The translations under genes were made by a program, and so were the position numbers. A DNA stretch of 64,000 bases from the NCBI GenBank assembly GCA_012842745.1, contig DUSF01000056.1, positions 62,001-126,000 of the forward strand, given 5' to 3'. This document shows, one piece after another, positions 2,530-2,691 of this stretch. How positions within the stretch are numbered: position 1 is the first letter of the stretch; each line of letters starts with the position of its first letter. The notes under the pieces are model-generated. The model saw only the letters and a program-made list of their open reading frames with translations. It was not told the origin of the DNA and did not search any database. The DNA is from Bacillus sp. (in: firmicutes). GTDB lineage: Bacteria; Bacillota; Bacilli; Bacillales; Bacillaceae_J.

Positions 2530-2691
2530 ATGATTTCAGAAATTGTTCAGCATTTAGTAAAAAATCAAGATGTGTTAGAGCAGGTTCAAAATGGCTTCGC
2601 AAGTTTAGTTGGCGTAAGTCAGGAAGAAGTTCAAATTATATTGAATGTATTGAATGGCACTGTTAAAACTTTATCAAGTTATTGGTTCTAA
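2530..2691 (+). CDS. comX: ComX pre-pheromone, 53 residues
   Basis: This short gene encodes the precursor of the ComX quorum-sensing pheromone, beginning MISEIVQHLVKNQDVLEQ and ending TVKTLSSYWF. The Trp is second from the C-terminus; in known ComX precursors a Trp within the last few residues is prenylated by ComQ and the C-terminal 5-10 residues are released. Length and position between comQ and comP fit the family, which shares little sequence. GGGAGG (2517-2522) lies 7 bases before ATG 2530; an adjacent ATG at 2527 has only 4 bases of spacing. A strong hairpin with a T-run follows the stop. The exact cleavage point and prenyl length cannot be read from the sequence. Confidence 0.92.
   Translation: MISEIVQHLVKNQDVLEQVQNGFASLVGVSQEEVQIILNVLNGTVKTLSSYWF

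Follow-up and report, generated by a model that had tools for sequence, protein, structure and literature searches.

We consider it very probable that a 53-codon reading frame in a 64,000-nucleotide stretch of a Bacillus sp. genome (hereafter the window) is comX and encodes the pre-pheromone of a complete comQXPA locus in the Schinkia lineage (Bacillaceae), in both its identity and its mode of action. Comparison with known protein families confirmed that this small gene encodes a genuine ComX precursor, an ordinary member of its family. As such it adds one pherotype to that family, from a lineage that was already in the 2014 census of Dogsa et al., where B. azotoformans was placed in the 'non-B. 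subtilis-like' clade (PMC4008528). The part worth following is the likely control of comQ by ComA, which reaches beyond comX itself.

The original prediction, drawn from the letters of the DNA, was of a 53-codon gene with a GGGAGG site, situated between comQ and comP and encoding a ComX precursor. We found the gene and its site at exactly 2530-2691 and 2517-2522 of the forward strand (Table 1), the frame running from ATG to TAA, 40 nt past the comQ stop and 96 nt ahead of comP; an alternative in-frame ATG at 2527 has poorer spacing to GGGAGG than the ATG at 2530. The prediction also held that length-based gene calling had missed the gene; 53 codons is longer than the shortest genes that such programs usually accept. 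The Pfam ComX profile (PF05952) matched the product, MISEIVQHLVKNQDVLEQVQNGFASLVGVSQEEVQIILNVLNGTVKTLSSYWF, over profile positions 1-55 of 55 at 74.6 bits (E 5.5e-21), three times the curated cut-off of 25 bits, and an NCBIfam search gave no ComX model match for comX. As predicted, the product ends in TLSSYWF and has a single Trp near its C-terminus, namely Trp52 of 53 (codon 2683-2685), which is second from the end and lies within the last 5-10 residues. The gene also has the length and place of a ComX gene (about 52-73 residues, between comQ and comP on the same strand). Comparison with Schinkia azotoformans yielded dN 0.066 and dS 1.27, and by this ratio of near 0.05 comX is under purifying selection.

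Table 1. Features of the comQXPA region (positions in the window)
Feature	Position	Strand	Description
Distal ComA-type site 1 (TTGCGGTTTACCGCAATGGGATTTCGG)	983..1009	+	no -10 behind
Distal ComA-type site 2 (TTGCGG-N5-CCGCAA-N5-TTTCGG)	1209..1236	+	spacer one base longer; no -10 behind
Promoter-proximal ComA-type site (CCGAAA-N5-TTGCGG-N4-CCGCAA-N5-TTTCGG)	1464..1501	+	0 mismatches; conserved at comQ in relatives
Predicted -10 of comQ (TATAAT)	1524..1529	+	exactly 22 nt past the proximal ComA-type site
comQ	1581..2489	+	302-aa isoprenyl transferase; Pfam PF00348, 70.7 bits
Ribosome-binding site (GGGAGG)	2517..2522	+	7 nt before ATG 2530; from sequence
comX	2530..2691	+	53-aa ComX pre-pheromone; PF05952, orthologues in 4 relatives, dN/dS about 0.05
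comP	2788..5127	+	779-aa histidine kinase; N-terminal PDZ (30-80), HisKA_3, HATPase_c (Pfam)
comA	5134..5793	+	219-aa response regulator, LuxR/GerE-type HTH; Pfam PF00072, PF00196

The genes adjoining comX encode the modifying enzyme, the receptor and the regulator, and Pfam domains together with orthologues bore out the assignments of comQ, comP and comA. All four genes are adjacent, intact, on one strand and encode the expected domains. ComQ, which is 62-71% identical to its family orthologues, contains DDLVD (D75-D79) as the first motif, DDxxD, and NDISD (198-202) as the pseudo-second motif; D75, D76, D79, N198 and D199 are invariant in an alignment of the window ComQ with 20 other ComQ proteins. 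In B. subtilis, Trp prenylation requires the Asp of the pseudo-second motif (PMC5331326); with both this residue (D199) and DDxxD kept, ComQ has the motifs of an isoprenyl transferase. The first hydrophobic stretch of ComP is followed by the PDZ region. The B. amyloliquefaciens model has the same layout, and in it PDZ was suggested as the ComX-binding part of the receptor (PMC9620489). When the PDB was searched with ComQ (E 1e-10), the matches were ordinary prenyl synthases and included no ComQ; NCBIfam gave only generic polyprenyl-synthase and NarL-type matches for the neighbors of comX, and Rfam had no match in positions 1-8000 of the window.

Orthologous comQXPA loci are present in four relatives of the host: the congeners S. 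azotoformans LMG 9581 and Bacillales MAG AS04akNAM_110 (hereafter AS04), and, from the same family, Calidifontibacillus erzurumensis and C. oryziterrae. Their ComX proteins are 60-87% identical to that of the window, and the Trp is invariant while the tail residues around it vary (TLSSYWF in the window; TLSSFWL in S. azotoformans; TLSGYWL, TLSDFWY and ILTGYWF in the others). It had also been proposed that the tail differs from those of B. subtilis and that the mature peptide is group-specific; the relatives share a leader and their tails diverge between species, which fits a group-specific pheromone. Across the order, ComX matches occurred in 51 of 397 genomes, and the penultimate position is the commonest place for Trp among the tails collected. 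Six characterized Bacillus strains have Trp third or fourth from the ComX C-terminus, and the ComQ of RO-E-2 accepts Trp second, third or fourth from the end in vitro (PMC5331326); this tolerance makes the window tail a plausible ComQ substrate. Another congener of the host, G003, lacks comQ, comX and a close comA.

S. azotoformans (formerly Bacillus) has the same gene order as the window, also downstream of pyrE, with identities of 70% for ComQ, 86% for ComX, 73% for ComP and 83% for ComA, and its comQ-proximal ComA-type site has spacing identical to that in the window. Besides the tail, the two differ in the pyrE-comQ interval, which holds several genes in S. azotoformans and no convincing one in the window. 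A literature search yielded no paper on ComX and quorum sensing in B. azotoformans. With the ComQXPA system of B. subtilis the window shares gene order, the ComX family, the ComQ motifs, a PDZ-like extracellular region in ComP and the LuxR-type HTH of ComA. It differs in having Trp second, rather than third or fourth, from the C-terminus, in that no degQ was seen before comQ, and in having a ComA-type site at the comQ promoter, whereas comQXPA of B. subtilis has been reported to operate without signal feedback (PMC7794433).

Three palindromes lie upstream of comQ (Table 1). ComA of B. subtilis binds this inverted repeat (TTGCGG/CCGCAA), with further half-sites downstream (PMC4797271), and the comQ promoter matches the ComA-dependent layout, having the inverted repeat and a downstream half-site (core 1475-1501) ahead of the -10 at 1524. 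The comQ transcript is predicted to begin near 1535. The CCGAAA at 1464-1469 mirrors the half-site TTTCGG and is found also at the comQ-proximal site of both congeners, S. azotoformans and AS04. Shuffled sequence leads one to expect 0.01 exact palindromes in the window, against the three seen. Exact matches to TTGCGG-N3-6-CCGCAA number six in the 3.5-Mb host genome, three of them inside coding genes and three, the only intergenic ones, upstream of comQ. A search of the host genome allowing 3 mismatches found no tripartite site outside the comQ region and thus revealed no further members of the ComA regulon. Behind pyrE, S. azotoformans, AS04 and C. erzurumensis each have a site orthologous to distal site 1. 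We do not claim either distal site as an active promoter, since neither has a -10 at the expected distance. The proximal site and comQ promoter are overlapped by a 73-codon frame (1360-1581) that starts like a response-regulator receiver (IKVVAVEDSRYWQNKL) and is probably a gene relic.

The comQ-proximal site has 0 mismatches in S. azotoformans and 1 in AS04; in C. oryziterrae it is degenerate, with 3 mismatches and a further 1 in the half-site. In all three, a TATAAT or TACAAT starts exactly 22 nt past the site. C. erzurumensis is without a comQ-proximal site, its sole site being 281 nt upstream of comQ, and in G003 no ComA-type site turned up when up to 1 mismatch was allowed. When the tripartite site was sought with at most 1 mismatch, it occurred in 28 of the 397 genomes of the order (4 from the host family, 9 from family f36 and 15 from family f7). 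At the f36 and f7 loci examined, it lies near what we take, from our reading of the sequences, to be a DUF3939-like gene and comK, and a TANAAT follows at exactly 22 nt in 16 of 16 cases. All 20 promoters that we compared, 4 of comQ and 16 next to comK, have this spacing between site and -10. None of the f7 genomes matched ComX; those checked carry a comP-comA pair, with a ComA that is 42-47% identical to that of the window, and a ComA homologue is present in all genomes with ComA-type sites that were checked for one. The best site in B. licheniformis-type loci is 409-481 nt before comQ, where we would expect degQ, a known ComA target. Conserved sites with a fixed 22-nt spacing, absent from the comA-less congener, argue that comQXPA is here probably activated by ComA.

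Other features of these loci were noted in the course of the comparison. In 16 f36 and f7 loci, the comK-side site (1501-1527) is followed, some 260 nt further 3', by a conserved, apparently non-coding transcript of ~220 nt that ends in TTCCCTCACTCAAAAGTTAACCAGTCGTCTCTTTT; the transcript matched no Rfam family and is possibly a ComA-controlled small RNA. The comP-comA pairs that occur without comQ and comX adjoin sdhCAB (seven loci in f7 and two in f36), and one f36 genome, G138, has a comP-comA pair plus a full comQXPA. In S. azotoformans, a broken comA copy with one internal stop and 81% identity adjoins a ComA-type site on contig C126 (L091, 1851-2541), and pyrE together with the paired ComA-type sites behind it is duplicated upstream of comQ (L090, 4499-12404); a transposase-like gene pair lies at the junction. 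ComQ homologues come directly after a comP-comA-like pair in ten loci belonging to Chengkuizengella, Cohnella and Paenibacillus, where no recognizable comX lies nearby; the 900 nt after comQ in Paenibacillus-type comP-comA-comQ loci contained no convincing candidate for a ComX-like ORF.

Given its length of 53 codons, the frame could be a small ORF that arose by chance between comQ and comP, and the true ComX could be missing or encoded elsewhere. The Pfam score, the orthologues in place in four relatives, the low dN/dS and the well-spaced ribosome-binding site refute this reading, to which we assign practically no probability. If comX instead belonged to a decayed or silent locus, where it was kept by linkage after signaling was lost, this would accord with the lack of comQ, comX and comA in G003 and with the broken extra comA copy of S. 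azotoformans, and a second comQXPA in the host genome (described below) could render the comX locus redundant. However, none of the four genes in the window locus is disrupted, selection on ComX is purifying, and the comQ promoter is conserved together with its ComA-type site. We regard a silent locus as very improbable.

It is also conceivable, if unlikely, that the palindromes upstream of comQ are terminators or sites for another regulator, in which case the locus, like that of B. subtilis, would have no feedback. On contig C58 of AS04, a few sites of a similar kind precede T-runs and would fit bidirectional terminators, but the comQ sites are without a T-run. Nor does this reading account for a spacing to the -10 that is invariant across unrelated loci, for the ComA homologues in the site-bearing genomes checked when G003 is without both, or for the site that the same search finds at the expected degQ of B. 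licheniformis-type loci. In addition, the sites match the inverted repeat and half-site defined experimentally for B. subtilis ComA (PMC4797271). We think it likely that the palindromes serve as ComA sites and that ComA activates the comQ promoter of Schinkia, with feedback from the signal.

The host genome has a second comQXPA locus on the 7.1-kb contig C43 (L003), where comQ2, comX2, comP2 and comA2 are 36-50% identical to the genes of the window. ComX2 scores 46.6 bits against PF05952 and has the tail KPTGHWN, and small ORFs with no family assigned lie between comQ2 and comX2. Lysinibacillus sphaericus C3-41 likewise has two comQXPA loci per genome, both canonical (PMC4008528), but in the second locus of the host these extra genes separate comQ from comX, and the locus adjoins a 5S rRNA gene. 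The locus is flanked by direct repeats of 55-57 nt (86%) consisting of an rRNA terminator and the 3' end of 5S (C43, 104-158 and 6916-6971), as if it had been inserted beside the 5S rRNA gene. We consider contamination an unlikely source, because the 5S end is 96-97% like other rRNA ends of the host genome and because, in a tree of ComQ and the ComP kinase region, the long branch of the C43 locus joins the family locus (98/96). There is no ComA-type site in the C43 locus at 2 mismatches or fewer, and the ComA2 recognition region reads EKHISVIL, vs EYxLTxIF in most others. These two features suggest that the two circuits may be insulated from each other.

From the gene content and its conservation, we propose that comQ, comX, comP and comA would be transcribed from the promoter upstream of comQ, and that ComQ would move an isoprenyl group (geranyl or farnesyl) onto Trp52 of ComX. 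After cleavage of the precursor, a short peptide from its C-terminus, with the ending -SYW(prenyl)F, would be exported; this peptide would bind the extracellular part of ComP, which would phosphorylate ComA. Phosphorylated ComA would then bind the TTGCGG-N4-CCGCAA-N5-TTTCGG sites, including the one directly upstream of the comQ -10, and the signal would raise its own synthesis. In this scheme we infer from sequence that ComX is prenylated and processed, that the receptor is specific, and that ComA acts positively on the promoter.

For the lineage, we favor a picture in which the comQXPA locus of Schinkia and Calidifontibacillus is autoinducing and under direct ComA control. The second comQXPA of the host genome, with another pheromone tail and a diverged ComA recognition helix, is a candidate for a separate channel within one cell. 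If this is true, S. azotoformans and B. subtilis would offer a natural comparison for what feedback adds to quorum sensing.
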